Assembly (NCBI GenBank): GCA_040757595.1
Contig: JBFLWP010000010.1
Location: 1-64,000 of the forward strand
DNA from: Nitrospirota bacterium
GTDB lineage: Bacteria; Nitrospirota; Nitrospiria; Nitrospirales; Nitrospiraceae
Direction: 5' to 3'
Length of the DNA stretch: 64,000 nucleotides
Shown: in pieces, positions 25,681 through 62,524 of the stretch
How positions within the stretch are numbered: the stretch's first letter is position 1
Layout: each line of letters starts with the position of its first letter
Translations under genes and position numbers: made by a program
Notes under the pieces: model-generated
Database searches by the model: none
What the model saw: the letters and a program-made list of their open reading frames with translations, nothing else
What the model was told of the DNA's origin: nothing

Positions 25681-25983
25681 ATGATGGGCCAACCAGCAGC
25701 GGGGACCGTACAGATTCAGGTGAACGGTGAGCAGCGCGTGGCCCGTGCTGGCGTTACGATCGCGGATCTCCTCCGGGACCTGGACATCAAGCCGGACCGG
25801 GTGGCAGTCGAGGTGAACTTGGAGATTGTGGACCGGCGGGAGTTCGAACGACGGGGGCTTGGCGAGGGAGATCGTGTCGAAATCATCAGTTTCATCGGCG
25901 GAGGAAGCGGGCAAGCTTTCAGCGATCGGCGGTCAGCCTTCAGCCGGGAGATGAACACGAGCTTGCGGCAAGCTGATTGCTGA
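25681..25983 (+). CDS. thiS: sulfur carrier ThiS with a masked C-terminal Gly-Gly
   Basis: A 100-residue product from ATG 25681 (or 25684). The ubiquitin-like ThiS fold runs to residue 75: [64 protein letters not shown]. In ThiS the two last glycines must be the C-terminus, because ThiF adenylates the carboxylate and the thiocarboxylate donates sulfur to ThiG. Here about 25 extra residues follow, encoded by a heptamer array (25910-25992), and the stop is supplied by that array. Either a protease trims the tail or ThiS is inactive. thiG follows 22 bases on. Confidence 0.85.
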
Positions 25984-25992
25984 CAGCTTCTT
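25910..25992. repeat. heptamer array pair overlapping the thiS 3' end (unit GCTGAAG)
   Basis: Left arm 25910-25944, read as complements: GCTGAAG, GCTGACC, GCCGATC, GCTGAAA, GCTTGCC. Right arm on the plus strand: GCGGCAA (25965-25971), GCTGATT, GCTGACA, GCTTCTT (to 25992). The left arm lies inside the thiS frame and the thiS TGA is in GCTGACA of the right arm. Confidence 0.8.
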
Positions 25993-26005: not shown

Positions 26006-26779
26006 ATGAACCACGATCGGCTGGTCATCGCGGGGCGCGAGTTCCGGTCGCGCCTGTGGGTCGGAACCGGCAAGTACAAGGACTTCGTCGAGACCAAGCA
26101 AGCCATCGACGCGTCCGGCGCCGATGTCGTCACGGTCGCGGTGCGGCGGGTGAACGTGACCGACCGCTCCAAGGAGAATTTGCTCGATTATCTGGACCCC
26201 AAGAAGTACACGATCCTGCCGAACACGGCCGGCTGCTACACGGTCGAGGACGCGGTGCGCTATGCGAGGCTGGCCCGCGCAGCCGGCGTGTCCGATCTCG
26301 TCAAGCTCGAAGTGATCGGCGACGAGCGAACGCTGTTCCCCGACACGGCCGGTCTGATCGAGGCGGCCAAGATCCTGCTCAAGGAAGGATTCATCGTGCT
26401 GCCCTACACGAACGACGACCCGGTGGTCGCCAAGAAGCTGGTCGACATCGGCTGCCCGGCCGTCATGCCCCTGGCGGCCCCGATCGGCTCCGGGCTCGGC
26501 ATCCGCAATCCGTACAACCTGAAGATCATCCTCGAGACCGTGCGGGTGCCGGTCATCGTGGACGCCGGCGTCGGCACCGCGTCCGACGCGGCGCTGGCGA
26601 TGGAATACGGGGCTGACGCGGTTCTCATGAACACCGCGATCGCCGGCGCGAAGGATCCGATCGCCATGGCGGAGGCCATGAAATATGCGGTCGAAGCCGG
26701 GCGCCTGGCCTACAAGGCCGGCCGTATCCCCAGGAAGCTCTACGCGACTGCCAGCAGCCCGATCGAGGGCATGCTCTGA
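26006..26779 (+). CDS. thiG: thiazole synthase
   Basis: A 257-residue TIM-barrel enzyme that builds the thiazole ring of thiamine from deoxyxylulose 5-phosphate, dehydroglycine/glycine imine and ThiS-thiocarboxylate. Visible hallmarks: [47 protein letters not shown], the Schiff-base lysine in [53 protein letters not shown]. Length is typical. It lies between thiS and thiE with heptamer arrays on both sides. Confidence 0.96.
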
Positions 26780-26783
26780 GCCG

Positions 26784-26857
26784 CGTGAAACGTCGCGCGT
26801 GAAGCGTGAAGCGCACCATCGGTCTGGCGAGCCACGCTTCACGAGCCACGCTTCACG
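26784..26857. repeat. heptamer array pair (unit CGTGAAG)
   Basis: Plus arm 26784-26818: CGTGAAA, CGTCGCG, CGTGAAG, CGTGAAG, CGCACCA. Minus arm 26823-26857, complements: CGTGAAG, CGTGGCT, CGTGAAG, CGTGGCT, CGCCAGA. Ten units in all, between the thiG stop and the thiE ATG. Confidence 0.85.
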
Positions 26858-26861
26858 AAGA

Positions 26862-27494
26862 ATGCCCTGCGTTGATTTTCCCCTCTACCTGATTACCGAT
26901 CGCCATCAGACCGGCGGGCGGCCACTGGTGCCGCTCCTCCGTGACGCACTGGACGCCGGCGTGCGGGCCGTCCAGGTCAGGGAGAGGGACCTGGCCACCC
27001 GCCCGCTGCTCGACCTGGCGGAACAGATCCTGCCCCTCGCACGGAACCGACGGGCCCGGATGCTCATCAACGACCGTGTGGACCTTGCCATGGCGCTCGA
27101 CGCGGACGGCGTCCACCTGCGTGCGGACAGCCTACCGGTATCGGTGGCGCGCCGGCTCCTGGGCCAGGATCGGCTGATCGGCGTGTCGGCCCACTCGGTG
27201 GACGATGTTCTGCGGGCTGAATGCGACGGAGCCGACTTCACGGTGCTGGGCCCGATTTACGAGACGCCGTCGAAGCGGGCGTACGGGCCGCCGATCGGCC
27301 TCGGTCCGATCGAGGAGGCCGCGCGCCGGTGCCGGATCCCGGTGTTCGCGATCGGCGGCATCACGGCAGCACGGGTCGGTGAGGTGCGACGGGCCGGCGC
27401 CTTCGGCGTCGCGGTCATCTCGTCCATCCTCTCCGCCGAGCGGGTCGAGGCCGCCGTATGCGGCCTGCTCGAGGCGCTGGCGGTCCCGACGTGA
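26862..27494 (+). CDS. thiE: thiamine phosphate synthase
   Basis: The product has 210 residues from ATG 26862, the first plausible start after the heptamer array. TIM-barrel motifs: PLYLITDRHQTGG, GVRAVQVRERDL, LINDRVDLAMALDADGVHLRADSLPV, CDGADFTVLGPIYETPSKRAYGPPIGL and FAIGGITAARVGEVRRAGAFGVAVISSIL. ThiE joins the thiazole phosphate and hydroxymethylpyrimidine diphosphate to thiamine phosphate. ThiL, the next step, is encoded at 37.5-38.6 kb. Confidence 0.94.
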   Translation: MPCVDFPLYLITDRHQTGGRPLVPLLRDALDAGVRAVQVRERDLATRPLLDLAEQILPLARNRRARMLINDRVDLAMALDADGVHLRADSLPVSVARRLLGQDRLIGVSAHSVDDVLRAECDGADFTVLGPIYETPSKRAYGPPIGLGPIEEAARRCRIPVFAIGGITAARVGEVRRAGAFGVAVISSILSAERVEAAVCGLLEALAVPT

Positions 27495-27568: not shown

Positions 27569-27628
27569 CCGAGCAAGTTTGGGCTTCCGGTGTCAGTGCG
27601 ACGACAGGACGATGAGGAGCGTGACTCG

Positions 27629-29398
27629 ATGCCTGATCCCAAGCGAGGCCCTGGCCGCCTCAGCACCTTTCGGGATTCCGTCAAGAAGCTGACCGAACGG
27701 CTGTCGGACGGAGAGCCGAACCCCGCGAGAAAGAGCGACGATCACATGCGTGAACTGGAGAAGCTGCGGATCCAGGTCCAGTCGATGGAGGAGGAGCTGC
27801 GTCAGCTCCATCATTCGCGGTACCAGCTCGAGCAGGCCCACAAGCAAAACGAACGGCTGACCGCAACGCTTCAGGAAGCCAAGGCGCAGATCGAGGCTCT
27901 GCGCGCGGAAGTTGACAAGCTGACGGCGCCCCCGTCCACCTACGCCATCTTCTCCAGCCTGAACACCGACTCGACTGCGAACGTGTACGTCTCCGGACGC
28001 AAGATGAAAGTGAACGTCCACCCGGCGATCAAGGCCAAGGATCTGCGCAAAGGGCAAGAGGTCATCCTGAACGAGGCCTTCAACGTGATCGAGGCCCGGG
28101 GCTTCGACGGCCAGGGCGAGGTCGTACGGCTCAGGGACCTGCTGGATGGGAGACGCGCCCTCGTGACCTTGCACTTCGACGAAGAGAAGGTCGCCGATCT
28201 CGGCGAGCCGCTGCTGACCGAACGGCTGAGCGTCGGGGACCATCTGCTCTACGACCCGCGCTCCGGCTACGTCATCGAGAAACTGCCGAAGTCCGAGGCG
28301 GAGGAGTTGGTCCTCGAAGAGGTGCCGGATATCAGCTACGACGACATCGGTGGGCTCTCGAAAGAGATCGAGCAGGTACGGGACGCGGTGGAACTGCCGT
28401 TCCTGCATCCGGAGCTCTTCCGGGAGCACAAGCTGAGCGCTCCCAAGGGCGTGCTCCTGTACGGCCCACCCGGCTGCGGGAAGACCCTGATCGCCAAGGC
28501 CGTGGCGAACTCCATCGCCAAGAAGCTCGGTCATCTGACCGGCAAGGAGGTTCGCAGCTTCTTCCTCCACGTCAAGGGACCGGAATTGCTCAATAAGTAC
28601 GTCGGAGAGTCCGAGCGGCAGGTGCGGGAGGTGTTCAAGAAGGCGAAGGAGCGGGCGGCCGACGGCAACCCGGTCATCGTGTTTTTCGACGAGATGGACG
28701 CGCTCTTCCGCACCCGAGGCACCGGCATCTCCTCCGACATCGAGTCCACGATCGTCCCGCAGTTCCTCTCCGAGATCGACGGGGTCGAGCGGCTGCGCAA
28801 CGTGATCGTGATCGGGGCCAGCAACCGGCAGGACCTGATCGACCCGGCCGTGCTCAGGGCCGGCCGGCTCGATGTGAAGATCAAGATCTCAAGGCCCGAC
28901 GCGCCCGCCGCGAAGGAAATCTTCGCCAAGTACGTGACCCCCGACCTGCCGTTTGCCGCCGACGAGCTGGAGCGATTCACCGGCGATCGGGCGGCGCTCG
29001 TGGAGCGGCTGATCGCCGCGACCGTCGAGGCCATGTACGCGACGTCCGAGGAGAATAAGTTTCTCGAAGTGACCTACGCGAGCGGGGAAAAGGAAATCCT
29101 CTACTTCAAGGATTTCGCCAGCGGCGCCCTGATCGAAGGCATCGTGGCCCGGGCCAAGAAGTACGCGATCAAGCGCGTGCTGGCGACGGGCGAAAAGGGC
29201 GTCAAGACAGATGACCTGCTCCGGGCCATCCGTGAGGAGTTCAAGGAGCACGAGGACCTGCCGAACACCACCAACCCGGATGACTGGGCCAAGATTGCCG
29301 GGAAGAAGGGCGAGAAGATCGTCCACGTTCGAACCATTACGGCGGGCTCGGCCGAGTCGAGGCGGATCGAGACGATCAGTACCGGCCACTACTTCTGA
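27629..29398 (+). CDS. mpa: proteasomal AAA+ ATPase Mpa/ARC
   Basis: The protein has 589 residues from ATG 27629 (GAGGAG eight bases upstream; a GTG at 27590 is weaker). It shows an N-terminal coiled coil at residues 38-100, which in Mycobacterium captures Pup, two OB-type inter-domains, and the AAA+ module: Walker A GPPGCGKT at 279-286, Walker [13 protein letters not shown] at 349-360, pore loop KYVGESER, arginine finger region [20 protein letters not shown]. It ends HYF, which keeps the penultimate Tyr of the proteasome-docking C-terminus (QYL in Mycobacterium). It unfolds tagged substrates into the 20S core encoded downstream. Confidence 0.95.
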
Positions 29399-29421
29399 TT
29401 TCCACTCGGAATCGAGGGCAC

Positions 29422-30903
29422 ATGCTTTTGCCGCGCGTGTTGGGCACGGAAACCGAGTTTGGCATCGCCGCCCGCGACGCCGACGCGCTCGATCCGGTCT
29501 CGAACTCGCTCCAGCTCATCGGGCATTACCCCGCGTTGCCGGCTCCCCAAGCCATCTGGGACTATGAAAACGAGAACCCCCTGCTGGACGTCCGGGGGTT
29601 CGAAGTCGAGGGCGAGCGCGAGCGGCCGGGGCCCGATTACAACCGCCTCCTGAACAAGCTCCTCGCCAACGGCGCCCGTCTCTACGTGGACGGAGCCCAT
29701 CCCGAATATTCCACGCCGGAGTGTACGAACGCTCGGGAGCTGGTGGCGTACGAGCGGGCCGGCGAGCGGATCCTGGCCGACTGCCTGCGGGCTCTGGCGA
29801 AAGCCCGTGGCGGGGAAAAGTTCCTCGTGTACAAGAACAACTCAGACGGCAAGGGGAACAGCTACGGGTACCACGAGAACTACCTGATCGCCCGGTCCGT
29901 GCCCTTCGATCGGATCGTGCAGGCGCTGGTGCCCTTCCTGGTCACCCGGCAGATTTATGCGGGGGCGGGGAAGGTCGGGGCGGAGAACCAGACGAGAACG
30001 ACGGACTATCAGATTTCCCAGCGGGCGGACTTCTTCGAGTGTCTGGTGGACCTGAACACGATGGTCAAGCGGCCGATCATCAACACGCGCGACGAGCCGC
30101 ATGCCGATCCGGCCAAGTACCGCCGGCTGCACGTGATCGTGGGCGATGCCAACATGGCGGAGCTTTCCACCTATTTGAAGGTCGGGACACTGGCCATCGT
30201 GCTCGAGATGCTCGAGGGGGGCGTCGAGTTCCCCCGACTGGAATTGGACGACCCCGTCCGGGCCATCAAGGAGGTCTCCCGCGACCTGGACATGAAGGGG
30301 AGCCTCAAGCTGGCGGATGGGCGGACGACCTCGGCGATCGGCATCCAGCGCGCTTACCTGAAGGCGGCGCTCGACTACTTCGCTTGCCACGAGCTGTCTC
30401 AGGTCACCAAGGACGTGCTCGTTCGTTGGGAGGAGGTGCTGGACAAGCTCGAGCGGGACCCCATGCAGCTCGGGCGCGAGCTCGACTGGGTCGCCAAACG
30501 GCAGATGATCCAGTCCTACATGGACCGAAAGGGATGCGGGTGGACCGATCCGCGGGTCCTGCTGTTGGATCTCCAGTATCACGACGTTCGGCCGGAGAAG
30601 GGCCTCTATTACACGCTGGAGCGAGGCAACCTGATCGACCGCTTGGTCCAGGACAGCGAGATCGTCAAGGCCGAACAGTCTCCGCCGACCGGGACCCGGG
30701 CCTATTTCCGCGGGTGCTGCCTCAGGAAGTTTCCTCGGCAGGTCTATGCCGCGAGCTGGACTTCGGTGCTCTTCGACGTCGGGAACACCACGATCAAGAA
30801 GATCCCGCTGATGGAGCCGTTGCGTGGGACGGAGTCGCTCACGCGAGAGCTGCTCGACGGGTCCGACTCGGCGGAGTCGCTGCTTGCCAAACTGACCGGC
30901 TGA
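29422..30903 (+). CDS. dop: deamidase/depupylase Dop
   Basis: A 493-residue carboxylate-amine-ligase-family protein. The start GTETEFGIAARDADALDPVSNS and the insert ENENPLLDVRGF are of the Dop subtype. NGARLYVDGAHPEYSTPEC holds the key Asp (residue 90). YKNNSDGKGNSYGYHENYL, INTRDEPHADPAKYRRLHVIVGDANMAE and TRAYFRGCCLRKF are shared with Actinobacterial Dop. Dop deamidates the C-terminal Gln of Pup and removes Pup from targets. It is 23 bases after mpa. No Pup-like gene follows it. Confidence 0.95.
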   Translation: MLLPRVLGTETEFGIAARDADALDPVSNSLQLIGHYPALPAPQAIWDYENENPLLDVRGFEVEGERERPGPDYNRLLNKLLANGARLYVDGAHPEYSTPECTNARELVAYERAGERILADCLRALAKARGGEKFLVYKNNSDGKGNSYGYHENYLIARSVPFDRIVQALVPFLVTRQIYAGAGKVGAENQTRTTDYQISQRADFFECLVDLNTMVKRPIINTRDEPHADPAKYRRLHVIVGDANMAELSTYLKVGTLAIVLEMLEGGVEFPRLELDDPVRAIKEVSRDLDMKGSLKLADGRTTSAIGIQRAYLKAALDYFACHELSQVTKDVLVRWEEVLDKLERDPMQLGRELDWVAKRQMIQSYMDRKGCGWTDPRVLLLDLQYHDVRPEKGLYYTLERGNLIDRLVQDSEIVKAEQSPPTGTRAYFRGCCLRKFPRQVYAASWTSVLFDVGNTTIKKIPLMEPLRGTESLTRELLDGSDSAESLLAKLTG

Positions 30904-49148: not shown

Positions 49149-49225
49149 TCGGTGATGAGTGATCGGTAAGGAGGCTCTGAATACCGTGGCTGGCCACCTG
49201 TCACCTGTCACCTGTCGCCCATCAC
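49145..49225. repeat. heptamer array pair (unit GTGATCG/GTGACAG)
   Basis: Plus arm 49145-49172: GTGATCG, GTGATGA, GTGATCG, GTAAGGA. Minus arm 49191-49225, complements: GTGATGG, GCGACAG, GTGACAG, GTGACAG, GTGGCCA. The stop of the upstream gene, the AAGGAGG of lpxB and the first lpxB codons all lie in it. Confidence 0.85.
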
Positions 49226-50352
49226 CACGTATTTTGATCGTGACCGGTGAGGCCTCGGGAGACCTGCACGGGGCGAACTTGGCCGCCGCCATCCGCGCGC
49301 TGTGTCCAGAGGCCGAGATTCTTGGCGTCGGCGGTCCGAAGATGCAGGCTGCGGGCGTCAAGCTGATCCTCGGGATCGAGGGGCTGACCGCGATCGGGAT
49401 GATCGGGTGGGCCGTGCTCAGCCGGAGCGTCCGGACCTACGTGACCCTGGCCCGCTTTCTGCGTCGGCAGCCGCTCGGCGCCGTGGTCTTCGTTGACAAT
49501 CCCGGGCTGAACCTGCGCCTGGCCCGGGTCGCGAAGCGCGCGGGGCACCGGGTCGCCTATTACGTCGCTCCCCAGATCTGGGCCTGGCACGCCGGCCGGA
49601 TCAACGTGATCAAGCGGGTCGTGGATCGCATGATCGTCATCCTGCCGTTCGAACGCGAGATCTACGAGCGGGCCGGGGTGCGCTGCGACTTCGTCGGCCA
49701 TCCGCTGCTGGACGTCGTGGCGCCGTCCTACGACCGCTCCGAGCTCCGCAAGCGCTTCGGGGTGGACGGGGCCTCGCGGGTCATCGGGTTCCTGCCGGGG
49801 AGTCGGGAGCGGGAGGTCCGCGATCTGCTGCCGGTGATGCTGCGCGCCGCCGCGACCCTGGCCCGGACGCATCCGGGCCTGCAATTCGTGCTGGCCCAGG
49901 CGGCGTCGCTCTCGGCGCGTCTGCTGGAGGATCTGCTGGCTGGCTCCGGCGTGAGCGTTCGGGTCGTGCGGGACCAGCCGAACGAGGTCATGGCGGCCTC
50001 GGACCTGCTCTTCGTCGCGTCGGGAACCGCGACCCTGCAGGCGGCGCTCGTCGGGACGCCCATGGTCATTCTTTACCGCGTCTCCCGGCTGACCTATTGG
50101 CTCGGCCGCCTCCTGGTCCGGGTCAAGTGCATCGGGCTGGTCAATCTGGTGGCCGGTCGCAAATTCGTGCCCGAGCTCATTCAGCGGGACGCGACGCCCG
50201 AGCGGCTCTGCGAGGAGGCGAGCCGTTTGCTCGACGACGAACTGGCCAACAGGGAGATGAGCGCGGCGCTGCGCCGCGTGCGGGAGGAGCTCGGCGAGCC
50301 GGGGGCGTCTCGGCGCGCGGCGGCGGCGGTCTTGTCGGAGTGCCGGACATGA
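49186..50352 (+). CDS. lpxB: lipid-A-disaccharide synthase
   Basis: The product has 388 residues if started at GTG 49186 (AAGGAGG 11 bases upstream); a GTG at 49159 is the other choice. Either way the first dozen residues (AGHLSPVTCRPSP) are encoded by a heptamer array; the LpxB core begins RILIVTGEASGDLHGANLAAAI. Further motifs: VFVDNPGLNLRLARVAKRAGHRVAYYVAPQIWAWHAGRI, PFEREIYERAGVRCDFVGHPLLD, FLPGSREREVRDLLPVML, VASGTATLQAALVGTPMVILYR. LpxB (GT19) joins lipid X to UDP-diacyl-GlcN. It overlaps msbA by ATGA. Confidence 0.94.
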   Translation: MAGHLSPVTCRPSPRILIVTGEASGDLHGANLAAAIRALCPEAEILGVGGPKMQAAGVKLILGIEGLTAIGMIGWAVLSRSVRTYVTLARFLRRQPLGAVVFVDNPGLNLRLARVAKRAGHRVAYYVAPQIWAWHAGRINVIKRVVDRMIVILPFEREIYERAGVRCDFVGHPLLDVVAPSYDRSELRKRFGVDGASRVIGFLPGSREREVRDLLPVMLRAAATLARTHPGLQFVLAQAASLSARLLEDLLAGSGVSVRVVRDQPNEVMAASDLLFVASGTATLQAALVGTPMVILYRVSRLTYWLGRLLVRVKCIGLVNLVAGRKFVPELIQRDATPERLCEEASRLLDDELANREMSAALRRVREELGEPGASRRAAAAVLSECRT

Positions 50353-52109: not shown

Positions 52110-52780
52110 GTGGGGTATTCGCGTACGCTGAGTTGGCTCAAGCTGCACCTGGTTCCACCGGTCGGCGCCTTGGCGATCCGGCTGCTGGGGAAGACCCTGC
52201 GGATCCAAACCGTGGGGACCGAGGTCGTCGACCGGCTCTACCGGCAGGGAACCAACTGCATCTTTGCCTTCTGGCACAGTCGGCAACTGATGATGCCGCT
52301 CGCCTATCGCGGGACCGGGGCCCACGTCCTGATCAGCGAGCATCGGGACGGCGAGTTGATCCAGCGGATCGTCGCACGCTTCGGCTTTTCCGCGGTCCGG
52401 GGGTCCACCACCAGGGGCGGGGCGGCGGCGCTCCGGCAACTCATCCGGCTCGGCCAGTCCGGTGCGGACTTGGTCGTCACCCCCGACGGACCCAAGGGCC
52501 CGAGACAGGTCGCGCAGATCGGGGTGATCCAACTGGCCAAGGCTACGGGGCTGCCCATCGTCCCGCTCACCTTCGCCTGCTCAAAAAAAAACTCTTCGCG
52601 AGCTGGGACCGGTTCCTGGTTCCCTATCCGTCCGGACGAGGCCTGTTCCTGTGGGGCGAGCCGATCTGGGTCAAGCCCGACTCAACGGCTGAGGATCTGG
52701 AAGCCAAGCGGATCGAGTTGCAGGAAGCGTTGAACCGGATCACGGCGGAAGCGGATGAGGCCGTGACGCGTGACGGGTGA
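52110..52780 (+). CDS. DUF374 lysophospholipid acyltransferase, frame broken at an A9 run
   Basis: The first part from GTG 52110 has the DUF374/LPLAT pattern: NCIFAFWHSRQLMMPLAYRG, ISEHRDGELIQRIVARFGFSAVRGSTTRGGAAALRQL, VVTPDGPKGPRQVAQIGVIQLAKATGLPIVPLTFACS. At 52583-52591 there are nine A residues. The original frame then yields nonsense-like residues to 52733, while the -1 frame continues the family: KKKLFASWDRFLVPYPSGRGLFLWGEPIWVKP, to TGA 52778-52780. A tenth A, or slippage on the run, would restore one 223-residue protein. It may be a sequencing error, a mutation or programmed slippage. Confidence 0.8.
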
Positions 52781-52848
52781 CGCGTGACAGGTCACGCAGG
52801 TGAGCAAAGGCGGTTCTCCGTTCCTACGTGTCACGCGTCGCGTGTGGC
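52763..52848. repeat. heptamer array pair (unit GTGACGC)
   Basis: Plus arm 52763-52797: GTGACGC, GTGACGG, GTGACGC, GTGACAG, GTCACGC. Minus arm 52821-52848, complements: GCCACAC, GCGACGC, GTGACAC, GTAGGAA. It contains the end of the acyltransferase frame and lies directly before waaA. Confidence 0.8.
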
Positions 52849-54256: not shown

Positions 54257-55300
54257 ATGCGGGTTCTGCTGACAGGCTTGGCCGTGCCCTATGGGCTGGC
54301 GGTGAGGGCGAGGGCGCTCCTGTACCGGGTCGGATGGCTGCCGAGCCGGCGGCTCCCGCGTCCGGTGGTGAGTGTAGGCAATCTGACGGTGGGAGGGACC
54401 GGCAAGACGCCGATCGTCATCTGGATCGCCCAGCGGTTGACGGCCCAGGGGATGGCCGTGGCGGTTTTGAGCCGAGGCTACCGCCGTCGGACTCGGGGAT
54501 CGTTCCTGTTGGTGTCGGACGGGGACACCGTCCTGGCCGGACCGGCCGATGCGGGAGACGAGCCGTATCTGATCGCCCAGCGCTGTCCCGGCGCGGTGGT
54601 GGCGGTCGGCGCGGATCGGTATCGGCTGGGGCGGTGGCTACTGGAGCGGAGCCCGAGGACCATTGATTGCTTCGTCCTCGACGACGGCTTCCAGCATCTG
54701 GCCCTGTGTCGCGACGTAGACCTCCTGCTCGTGGATGCGACGGATGCGGACGGGTTGGCCGGGTTGCTCCCGGCTGGCCGGTTGAGGGAGCCGCTGACAG
54801 CGGCCCGACGTGCGACCGCAGTGCTGATCACCCGCGCCGAGTCCCGGGCGGCCTGCGAGACCATGGCGCGGACCATCGAGGCGGCCGGGGTCTCGGGCCA
54901 GCCCATTTTCGTCCGGTTCAGGCCGGATGGGATCGTGCCGGTTGGGGGCGGATCCGCTCAAGAGGCGGAGGTCGTGGCGGGGCGCAAGGCGCTGGCGTTC
55001 AGCGGGATTGCCAATCCCCGGTCGTTCCACGAAACCTTGGCCGGCTTGGGGGTGACGTTGGTGGACAGCCTGGTCTTTCCCGACCACCATTGGTATCGGG
55101 CTGCCGAGTTGGAGGAGATCAGGCAACGGGCCGCCCGTGGCGGGGCCGAGCTGGTCCTCACGACCGAGAAGGATGCGGGTAAGGTAGCGCCTCTGCTCAA
55201 ACCGGACGACCGGTTCCTGGCCGTGAGATTGGGCGCCGAGATTCTGCGGGGACAGGATCGGCTGGAGCGGCTGCTCTTCTCCGTGACGGGTGACAGGTGA
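54257..55300 (+). CDS. lpxK: tetraacyldisaccharide 4'-kinase
   Basis: The protein has 347 residues from ATG 54257. P-loop SVGNLTVGGTGKTPIVIW near the N-terminus, and LDDGFQHLALCRDVDLLLVDATD, GRLREPLTAARRATAVLITRAE, FSGIANPRSFHETLAGLGVTLVDSLVFPDHHWY. LpxK phosphorylates the lipid A disaccharide at 4'. The stop lies in a heptamer array and overlaps the next start (GTGA). Confidence 0.95.
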   Translation: MRVLLTGLAVPYGLAVRARALLYRVGWLPSRRLPRPVVSVGNLTVGGTGKTPIVIWIAQRLTAQGMAVAVLSRGYRRRTRGSFLLVSDGDTVLAGPADAGDEPYLIAQRCPGAVVAVGADRYRLGRWLLERSPRTIDCFVLDDGFQHLALCRDVDLLLVDATDADGLAGLLPAGRLREPLTAARRATAVLITRAESRAACETMARTIEAAGVSGQPIFVRFRPDGIVPVGGGSAQEAEVVAGRKALAFSGIANPRSFHETLAGLGVTLVDSLVFPDHHWYRAAELEEIRQRAARGGAELVLTTEKDAGKVAPLLKPDDRFLAVRLGAEILRGQDRLERLLFSVTGDR

Positions 55301-55371
55301 CAAGTAAAGAGCGAGAAGTCAGAACTGAGCAACTGGGAGGTATCGGCCACGCGTCACGCGTCACGCATCAC
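55283..55371. repeat. heptamer array pair (unit GTGACAG/GTGACGC)
   Basis: Plus arm 55283-55338: GTGACGG, GTGACAG, GTGACAA, GTAAAGA, GCGAGAA, GTCAGAA, CTGAGCA, ACTGGGA. Minus arm 55344-55371, complements: GTGATGC, GTGACGC, GTGACGC, GTGGCCG. It holds the lpxK stop, the start and the first 25 codons of the next gene. Confidence 0.85.
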
Positions 55372-57108
55372 GATTCCGTTCGGCGGATCCTGGTCCGCGG
55401 ACCTAACTGGATCGGGGATGCGGTGATGTGCGAGCCGGCGGTGGCGGAGGTGCGCCGCCTGTTCCCGGCTGCAGAGGTAACGTTGCTCGTCAAGACGCCC
55501 GTGGCCGAGCTGTTCGCGCACCATCCGGCCGTGAGTCGGATCCTGGTGTATGAGGATCGGGAACGCCACGCGGGGTTGGGCGGCAAGTGGACTCTGTCGA
55601 GCCAGTTGCGCCGCCAGGGGTTCGACCTGGCCATCCTCTTTCAAAACGCGTTTGAAGCGGCGCTGCTCTCGTTTCTGGCTGGAATCCCCCGCCGTTACGG
55701 CTATGCGACGGACGGGAGAGGTCTGCTCCTATCCGATCCCGTTCCCGTGCCGGATCGGACGGCCGTCGCCCACCAGGTCCATTACTATTGGGATCTGCTG
55801 AAGCCCCTCGGAGCGACTGGCCGAGCTGGTACACCGCAGTTGTTTCTCGGGGATCAGGAGAAGGAGGCCATGGCTCGGCGCCTGGCTGAGGCGGGGATCG
55901 CCGACGGCGATCTGGTCATCGGCTTGAACCCCGGCTCGACCTACGGAGGGGCCAAGCGGTGGCTGCCAGAGCGGTTCGCAGAGGTCGCCGATCGGCTGGT
56001 GCGGGACAGTGAGGGAAAAGGGCGGACCATCCGCGTCGTGATCGTGGGGGCCGGAGGTGAGGAGGCTTTGGGCCAGTCCATTGCCGGACTCATGGAGACC
56101 GGACCGTCCGTGAAGCCCGTGGTCCTTTCCGGCCGGACCTCGATCCGGGAGCTCATGGCGGTCGTGCACCGGTGCGCCCTCTTCCTGACCAACGATACGG
56201 GCCCCATGCACATCGCCGCGGCGTTCGACGTTCCGGTCGTGGCCGTGTTCGGTCCGACGGATTGGCGGACGACGTCTCCGTTCGGCGGGCTCCATCGCGT
56301 CGTCCGTCAGCCGGTGGACTGCGCCCCCTGCCTGCTCCGGGAATGTCCGATCGACCACCGATGCATGACCCGGGTGACGGTCGGTCAGGTCTACGACGCA
56401 GCTTTCGAGCTCCTGCAACGTGGGCGAGAGGCTCGGGGCGAGAGGCTCGGGGCGAGGTTTGAACATCTAGCCCCTAGCCCCCTGCCGCCTGCCCCATTGG
56501 CCGGCACGACAGTCTTTCTAGACCGGGACGGCACGGTGAATCACGACACCGGCTATGTGAAGGGTCCGGAGGAGTTGGTGCTGTTTCCCGGCGTCGTCGA
56601 GGCGGTCGCGTGTCTCAAGCGGGCCGGCGCCCGCGTCGTGCTGGTGACGAACCAGTCCGGGGTCGCCAGGGGATTGATTGCGCCCGCTGCGCTGGAGGCC
56701 ATTCACGCCCGGCTGCGGAGCCTCCTGGAGGCCGGCGGGACGACGCTCGACGGTCTCTACGTCTGCCCGCACCATCCCGACGACGGCTGCCCCTGCAGGA
56801 AGCCACGGACGGGGCTGGTGGACCGGGCGATCGCCGAGCTGGGGCTGGACCGGTCTTCGGCCTATGTCGTGGGCGACCAGCGCCGCGATATCGAGTTGGG
56901 ATGGAACATTGGGGCGCGGACGGTGCTGGTAACCACCGGCCCCACCAGCGAGGAGGCGCTGGTGAGCCTGCGGGCTGACGGGACGCCTCCGGATGCGGTG
57001 GCGGGAAACCTGGGCGAGGCGGTGGAGTGGATCTTCCGGAATGCCGGATCCTTGCGTCGCGGAGCTCCGCTTCGCGATGTGACCTGGGCGGGGAGGGGAT
57101 TGAGGTGA
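55297..57108 (+). CDS. fused heptosyltransferase II / heptose bisphosphate phosphatase
   Basis: A 603-residue fusion. Residues 26-375 are a GT9 heptosyltransferase of the WaaF type ([87 protein letters not shown]). Residues 402-585 are a GmhB-type HAD phosphatase ([28 protein letters not shown], zinc motif [28 protein letters not shown]). GmhB removes the 7-phosphate from heptose bisphosphate, making the precursor WaaF later transfers. The linker at 376-400 and the first 25 residues are both encoded by heptamer arrays. Confidence 0.9.
56424..56495. repeat. heptamer array pair inside a gene, forming a domain linker
   Basis: Plus arm 56424-56458: GCGAGAG, GCTCGGG, GCGAGAG, GCTCGGG, GCGAGGT. 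Minus arm 56468-56495, complements: GGGGCAG, GCGGCAG, GGGGCTA, GGGGCTA. The 72 bases are a whole number of codons long and encode exactly the linker between the WaaF and GmhB domains. Confidence 0.85.
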
Positions 57109-62423: not shown

Positions 62424-62429
62424 GGATAT

Positions 62430-62524
62430 GGTCGGTGGCCGGTGGCTGGTGAAAGATGGGAGAAGTGGAACTGCGGGCCTGTTCTCACCGACCACTGCCC
62501 CCTGACCACAGACCACTGTTTCTC
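62430..62524. repeat. heptamer array pair (unit GGCTGGT/CAGTGGT)
   Basis: Plus arm 62430-62471: GGTCGGT, GGCCGGT, GGCTGGT, GAAAGAT, GGGAGAA, GTGGAAC. Minus arm 62483-62524, complements: GAGAAAC, AGTGGTC, TGTGGTC, AGGGGGC, AGTGGTC, GGTGAGA. It fills the gap between two GT2 genes and ends at the base before the next ATG. Confidence 0.8.

Follow-up and report, generated by a model that had tools for sequence, protein, structure and literature searches.

The window analysed here is a 64,000-nucleotide stretch of contig C10 of a draft genome (3.37 Mb, 36 contigs) whose best named ThiG matches are Nitrospira MAGs and Nitrospira moscoviensis, which places it in the Nitrospira family, and it carries the thiamine genes thiS, thiG, and thiE (Table 1). 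The thiS frame opens with an ATG, its product scores well above the cut-offs of both family models (37.45 bits for TIGR01683 and 22.5 bits for PF02597), and its stop lies 22 nt from the start of thiG, so that the gene is linked to thiG. An earlier interpretation made from the DNA letters alone (hereafter the sequence-only reading) had taken ThiG and ThiE to be intact, and the profile scores of both confirm this. Genes for a proteasomal ATPase and a Pup ligase are found directly downstream of thiSGE (window 27590-30903).

The chain of textbook ThiS terminates in Gly-Gly, and in studied species ThiS needs a free terminal glycine. MoaD has the same requirement in the species studied (PMC4326299). 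Unlike the textbook form, the ThiS encoded in the window lacks a Gly-Gly terminus: the profile match ends at GGG (25905), which is invariant at the end of the beta-grasp core in 30 aligned ThiS sequences, and 25 more open codons follow before the TGA. Judged by sequence, membership of the ThiS family stands, and the profile models do not demand a Gly-Gly end. AlphaFold pLDDT is ~50 in the tail and ~94 in the core, and the tail is accordingly predicted to be disordered.

Table 1. Coordinates of the features discussed (window positions unless a contig is named) and the basis on which each was assigned.
Feature	Coordinates	Strand	Basis
thiS, tailed pro-protein form as encoded, 100 aa	25681..25983	+	TIGR01683 71.8 bits, PF02597 53.2 bits, residues 12-75; alignment
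C-terminal tail after FIGGG, 25 residues, predicted disordered	25906..25980	+	reading frame; AlphaFold pLDDT
Heptamer array arm 1, TCAGCNN type, stop-free in 3 frames	25914..25944	+	sequence; lag-7 periodicity; frame enumeration
Spacer separating arms 1 and 2	25945..25970	+	sequence
Heptamer array arm 2, GCTGANN type, TGA in full units, contains the used stop	25971..25992	+	sequence; relatives; enumeration
thiS stop codon TGA, within unit GCTGACA	25981..25983	+	sequence
thiG (thiazole synthase), intact	26006..26779	+	PF05690 380.9 bits; 94-95% identity in close relatives
thiE (thiamine phosphate synthase), intact	26862..27494	+	PF02581 198 bits; TIGR00693 above cut-off
JAMM/MPN+ metalloprotease	C5:23599-24153		catalytic motif; Foldseek

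Two arms of tandem heptamers run through the tail and its stop. Arm 1 consists of the units AGCTTTC AGCGATC GGCGGTC AGCCTTC AGC, and arm 2 (AGCTGATTGCTGACAGCTTCTT) carries the unit on the opposite strand (...GCTGATT-GCTGACA-GCTT). Identity at lag 7 is 17/24, a value reached by 0 of 500 shuffles, and identity at lags 6, 8, and 9 does not exceed chance; the pattern TCAGCNNTCAGCNNTCAGC, with at most one mismatch, has 89 genomic occurrences vs 0 for the reversed control pattern. With tandem 7-bp units on both strands, a short spacer, and many genomic copies, the element belongs among the dispersed inverted heptamer arrays, and other arrays whose neighbours were inspected lie mostly at intergenic sites near gene ends. 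An Rfam search gave no match at E ≤1, and a strong RNA hairpin, considered as the feature under selection, finds little support (z -1.83, with 10 of 200 shuffles folding as well).

By enumeration, TCAGCNN arms contain no stop in any frame for any N, and GCTGANN arms contain a stop in every frame; 7 being indivisible by 3, it makes no difference in which frame an array is entered. In agreement with the sequence-only reading, the TGA used by thiS is part of a second-arm unit. That reading had also placed about 25 array-encoded residues after FIGGG: a tail of 25 codons is indeed present, but only ~13-14 of its residues derive from the arms, the remainder being encoded by the spacer and by the codons that directly follow GGG.

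Heptamer arrays of the same type occupy the thiS-thiG junction in six genera (L001, L003, L007, L009/L056, L018, and L085), and in all seven array-bearing loci the used stop is the TGA of a GCTGA unit, as is explained by an arm 1 that is open and an arm 2 that is closed in all frames. Array-free congeners of array carriers were found in three of the genera (g5, with tails QEA and QGA; g8; and g19, with tail R). The array-free tails include QEA (L012), QGA (L043), R (L087), and TEE (L002), each ending at its own stop. Comparison of the array-free locus L002 (GGG-TEE-TAA-GGGAGTCA) with L085 (GGG-SEE-array-TGA-GGGAGTCA) places the array just before the native stop site. Given that array-free relatives mostly stop 1-3 codons past GGG and that array carriers use an array TGA, the proposal that a heptamer array overwrote the thiS stop holds: the array lengthened a pre-existing short tail and displaced the native stop. 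Arrays of 8-bp period (with units such as NNNCATTG and CAATGNNN) were seen at the same junction in L004, L008, L044, L100, L114, and, more weakly, L088; with 7-bp arrays in some genera and 8-bp arrays in others, the thiS-thiG junction has been used by two kinds of repeat.

The burial of the glycines has a wider distribution than the array. The thiS-thiG junction was read in 104 genomes of the Nitrospira family; the two genes are adjacent in all of the loci examined, and every thiS encodes residues after GGG (1-35, median 3; at least 10 in 38 genomes), AE, AN, AR, SF, and SL being the commonest tails. Most of these tailed genes have no array, and some array-free genomes encode long tails with no detectable array, including N. 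moscoviensis (L167), whose complete chromosome encodes a ThiS tail of 20 residues. Buried glycines are thus a rule of the family for which the array is not responsible, and the idea that the array buried Gly-Gly, put forward in the sequence-only reading, is rejected. That reading had named array-free relatives with the same tail as evidence that would count against it; array-free relatives do have tails, though of different sequence, and in kind this counts against it. Of 45 loci with adjacent thiS sampled from the phylum outside the family, 14 end exactly at GGG and the rest are tailed; among the named loci, ThiS of the close MAG L149 ends at GGG. The first tail residue is Ala, Ser, Cys, or Thr in 94/104 genomes and in 58 of 68 distinct tails, compared with 13 of 62 distinct tails at the second position. 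By analogy with MoaX, in which this residue is Ser, the preference suggests a cut that needs a small residue on its far side, and partly it reflects shared ancestry.

A JAMM-type protease, whose presence the sequence-only reading had suggested looking for, was located on contig C5, and its catalytic residues are intact. The protein contains the motif E + H-[ST]-H-x7-S-x2-D (HSHTHSPAYPSMTD), and E50, H129-S-H131, S139, and D142 are invariant in 21 sequences. In Foldseek searches its structural model shows the JAMM fold, with E-values of 2e-10 to 2kks and ~1e-9 to PfJAMM1, and it matches JAMM structures from archaea and bacteria, among them that of PfJAMM1 in complex with the carrier SAMP2. The gene lies in a cluster on one strand that encodes a ThiS-type carrier (...YMGGGL), cysteine synthase, an E1, threonine synthase, a CysO/SAMP-like carrier (...AIAGGR), a NIL-domain protein, a second E1, and JAMM; here, as in G029, the only two E1s of the genome flank the CysO-like carrier next to JAMM. 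No linkage exists between thiS and the JAMM gene in this genome. The two E1s of the cluster are, however, the only E1 (ThiF/MoeB) enzymes found in the genome, so that the thiG-linked ThiS, if it is activated, uses an enzyme encoded beside JAMM. An E1 common to carriers of different pathways is known from mycobacteria (PMC3227635). Of the seven ThiS-family carriers encoded by the genome, six have residues after Gly-Gly. The genome also encodes a MoaD-MoaE fusion with an internal GG, a protein type that in other organisms has to be cut behind Gly-Gly.

JAMM (PF14464) was detected in 104 of 108 good-quality genomes of the family, representing all 22 genera, and where positions are listed together (for example in G001, G002, G005, G011, G018, and G019) the genes for JAMM, for the CysO-like carrier, and for the ThiS paralog fit within a span of ~5 kb. 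Neither JAMM nor any E1 was found in G017, G103, and G120 (estimated completeness 94-99%); thiS is present in G017 and G103, and in G017 (99% complete), where no JAMM is detectable, it has a tail (AE). The JAMM/E1 cluster is probably missing from these assemblies, whether a contig was lost or the lineage does without carrier activation, and because every E1 is absent too the three genomes are uninformative as a test of JAMM loss. In G102, which gave no JAMM match, both E1s are present, and the one on the JAMM side ends 48 bases from the contig end (C163:49), where the JAMM gene may have been cut off. Tail-less outgroups failed as a JAMM-minus control, since several outgroup families have both JAMM and a ThiS ending exactly at GGG. 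The presence of JAMM therefore does not predict a ThiS tail. JAMM may act on nothing but CysO and the MoaD-MoaE fusion.

We put at roughly two in three the probability that ThiS in the Nitrospira family is made as a pro-protein and cut back to GGG, with the JAMM of the C5 cluster as the most likely protease, and that its stop is consequently free to move. ThiS would be made with a disordered, dispensable tail behind the GGG that closes its beta-grasp core. The cut after the last glycine would fall to a metalloprotease, most likely to the JAMM clustered with the genome's only two E1s, and the glycine so exposed would allow an E1 to adenylate ThiS. Beyond the core and the first residue of the tail nothing would matter, leaving the stop codon free to move. 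In this genome the dispersed 7-bp inverted array entered the last codons of thiS, where arm 1 can be read in any frame and arm 2 offers a TGA in every frame, so that the tail could grow from a few to 25 residues with function kept. On balance we also incline, by a small measure, towards a broader version, in which the thiamine carrier of the whole family is always made as a pro-protein and has to be matured by a JAMM common to the cysteine and molybdopterin carriers. With the stop freed in this way, repeats would have settled in the thiS-thiG junction time and again and recast the tail, giving the 7-bp arrays of six genera, the 8-bp arrays of others, and the in-frame ThiS-ThiG fusion of a relative.

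Trimming would not necessarily involve JAMM. General proteases or carboxypeptidases might nibble the tail back to the folded core, a scheme that agrees with the predicted disorder of the tail, with the wide variation of tails in sequence and length, and with the tailed ThiS of G017, where no JAMM was found; yet nibbling would have to halt exactly at the last glycine, the strong bias for a small first residue suggests a specific cut, and G017 is without E1 too and its assembly may be incomplete, for which reasons we think this unlikely. A different role might fall to the ThiS-type paralog of the JAMM cluster (MLVKING...YMGGGL), which scores 58 bits with TIGR01683, above the cut-off, and could supply the thiazole sulfur while the thiG-linked ThiS decays. 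The second ThiS that the sequence-only reading had envisaged thus exists as a ThiS-type carrier, but it adjoins cysteine synthase and an E1 and itself has a residue after GGG. The adjacency of thiS and thiG throughout the family loci examined also speaks against decay, as does selection on the core of the thiG-linked ThiS: median dN/dS is 0.16 with the array and 0.18 without it, mean pN/pS being 0.184/0.648 in array carriers and 0.209/0.642 in array-free genomes. By these ratios, purifying selection on the core is equally strong whether the array is present or absent, and we consider the substitution of the paralog for ThiS improbable.

The same ratios disfavour a loss of ThiS function, since an intact core with similar dN/dS makes impairment unlikely. 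The sequence-only reading had counted an impaired pathway among its possibilities, with thiazole synthesis failing because the array destroyed the ThiS terminus, and the need of ThiS and MoaD for a free terminal glycine in studied species lends this some sense. Considering that every relative examined in the family is tailed, array-free ones included, that the core evolves at a dN/dS of ~0.16 in array carriers, and that ThiG and ThiE are intact, we hold it to be very improbable. An assembly or sequencing error could likewise produce a spurious extension in a draft genome such as this one, and would be hardly credible here: the array-in-tail layout recurs in genomes of five other genera, which argues against a frameshift, and array-free tails occur in complete chromosomes, that of N. 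moscoviensis among them.

Carriers that must be trimmed before use are familiar from other pathways. QbsE/QbsD and HcyS/HcyD, of siderophore and methionine synthesis, are carrier and protease pairs in which one or a few residues after GG are removed by JAMM, with JAMM and E1 in one cluster. The trimming proposed for ThiS resembles these systems in the extra residues after GG and in the clustering of JAMM with E1, and differs in the pathway, that of thiamine, and in the tails, which are short in QbsE and HcyS and span 1-35 residues within the one Nitrospira family. The fused molybdopterin synthase MoaX of M. tuberculosis is cleaved between Gly82 and Ser83 (PMC4326299), and the MoaD-MoaE fusion of D. 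radiodurans is cleaved by a JAMM protease (PMC8832034). Both contain a ThiS/MoaD-type carrier with Gly-Gly inside the chain that must be exposed by proteolysis; in contrast to them, where the downstream part is the working enzyme MoaE of the molybdopterin pathway, Nitrospira ThiS is followed by a short unconserved tail, belongs to the thiazole pathway, and would be cleaved by analogy. In L223 (Nitrospirae MAG S146_51, ~1501), thiS and thiG form one continuous frame (...VVTFVGGG-A-MEDDRLVI...), giving a ThiS-ThiG fusion that recalls MoaD-MoaE and was seen in this one MAG only.

The gene content of the C5 cluster is that of the described ThiS/MoaD-E1-JAB-cysteine synthase operons, in which JAB was predicted to free a buried ThiS/MoaD terminus and for which no JAB was reported in any thiamine operon (Iyer et al. 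2006, PMC1779556). The C5 E1s differ in lacking the fused rhodanese domain that most of those operons have. Compared with them, the location of the only E1s in the JAMM cluster ties the thiamine ThiS to JAMM even though the genes are unlinked. Should Nitrospira-family ThiS prove to be a pro-protein, thiamine synthesis in these bacteria would depend on a ubiquitin-type protease common to cysteine and molybdopterin synthesis, in contrast to the textbook ThiS ending in Gly-Gly and to the reported absence of JAB from thiamine operons. The 104 natural tails would then form a ready substrate library for the tolerance of the protease.

As to the repeats, Geobacter metallireducens has paired tandem heptamer/octamer sites on opposite strands (PMC2700814), and the TAACTGA heptamer arrays of Beggiatoaceae carry stops in three frames and sometimes overlap the stop of the upstream gene (PMC4679880). 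The thiS array shares with both the dispersed 7-8 bp units, with Geobacter the pairing on opposite strands, and with Beggiatoaceae the all-frame stops; its unit sequences are different, and the pair is asymmetric in translation, with arm 1 open and arm 2 closed. Intergenic repeats of this design can enter coding sequence harmlessly, one arm being readable and the other closing in all frames.

Further arrays were noted in the window. A second inverted heptamer array (GCGTGAA / TTCACGC, 26784-26858) lies between thiG and thiE, and its left-arm units also carry TGA; 7-bp-periodic arrays with other units occur at 49184-49232, 52757-52799, 55283-55382, and 62428-62520. Across the genome, a TCAGC heptamer array lies within 100 bp of three of the seven ThiS-family genes (G000:C13:83287-83305, G000:C4:23513-23531, and window 25914-25992): one array precedes the MoaD-MoaE fusion, another precedes a ThiS-like gene, and the third lies in thiS.
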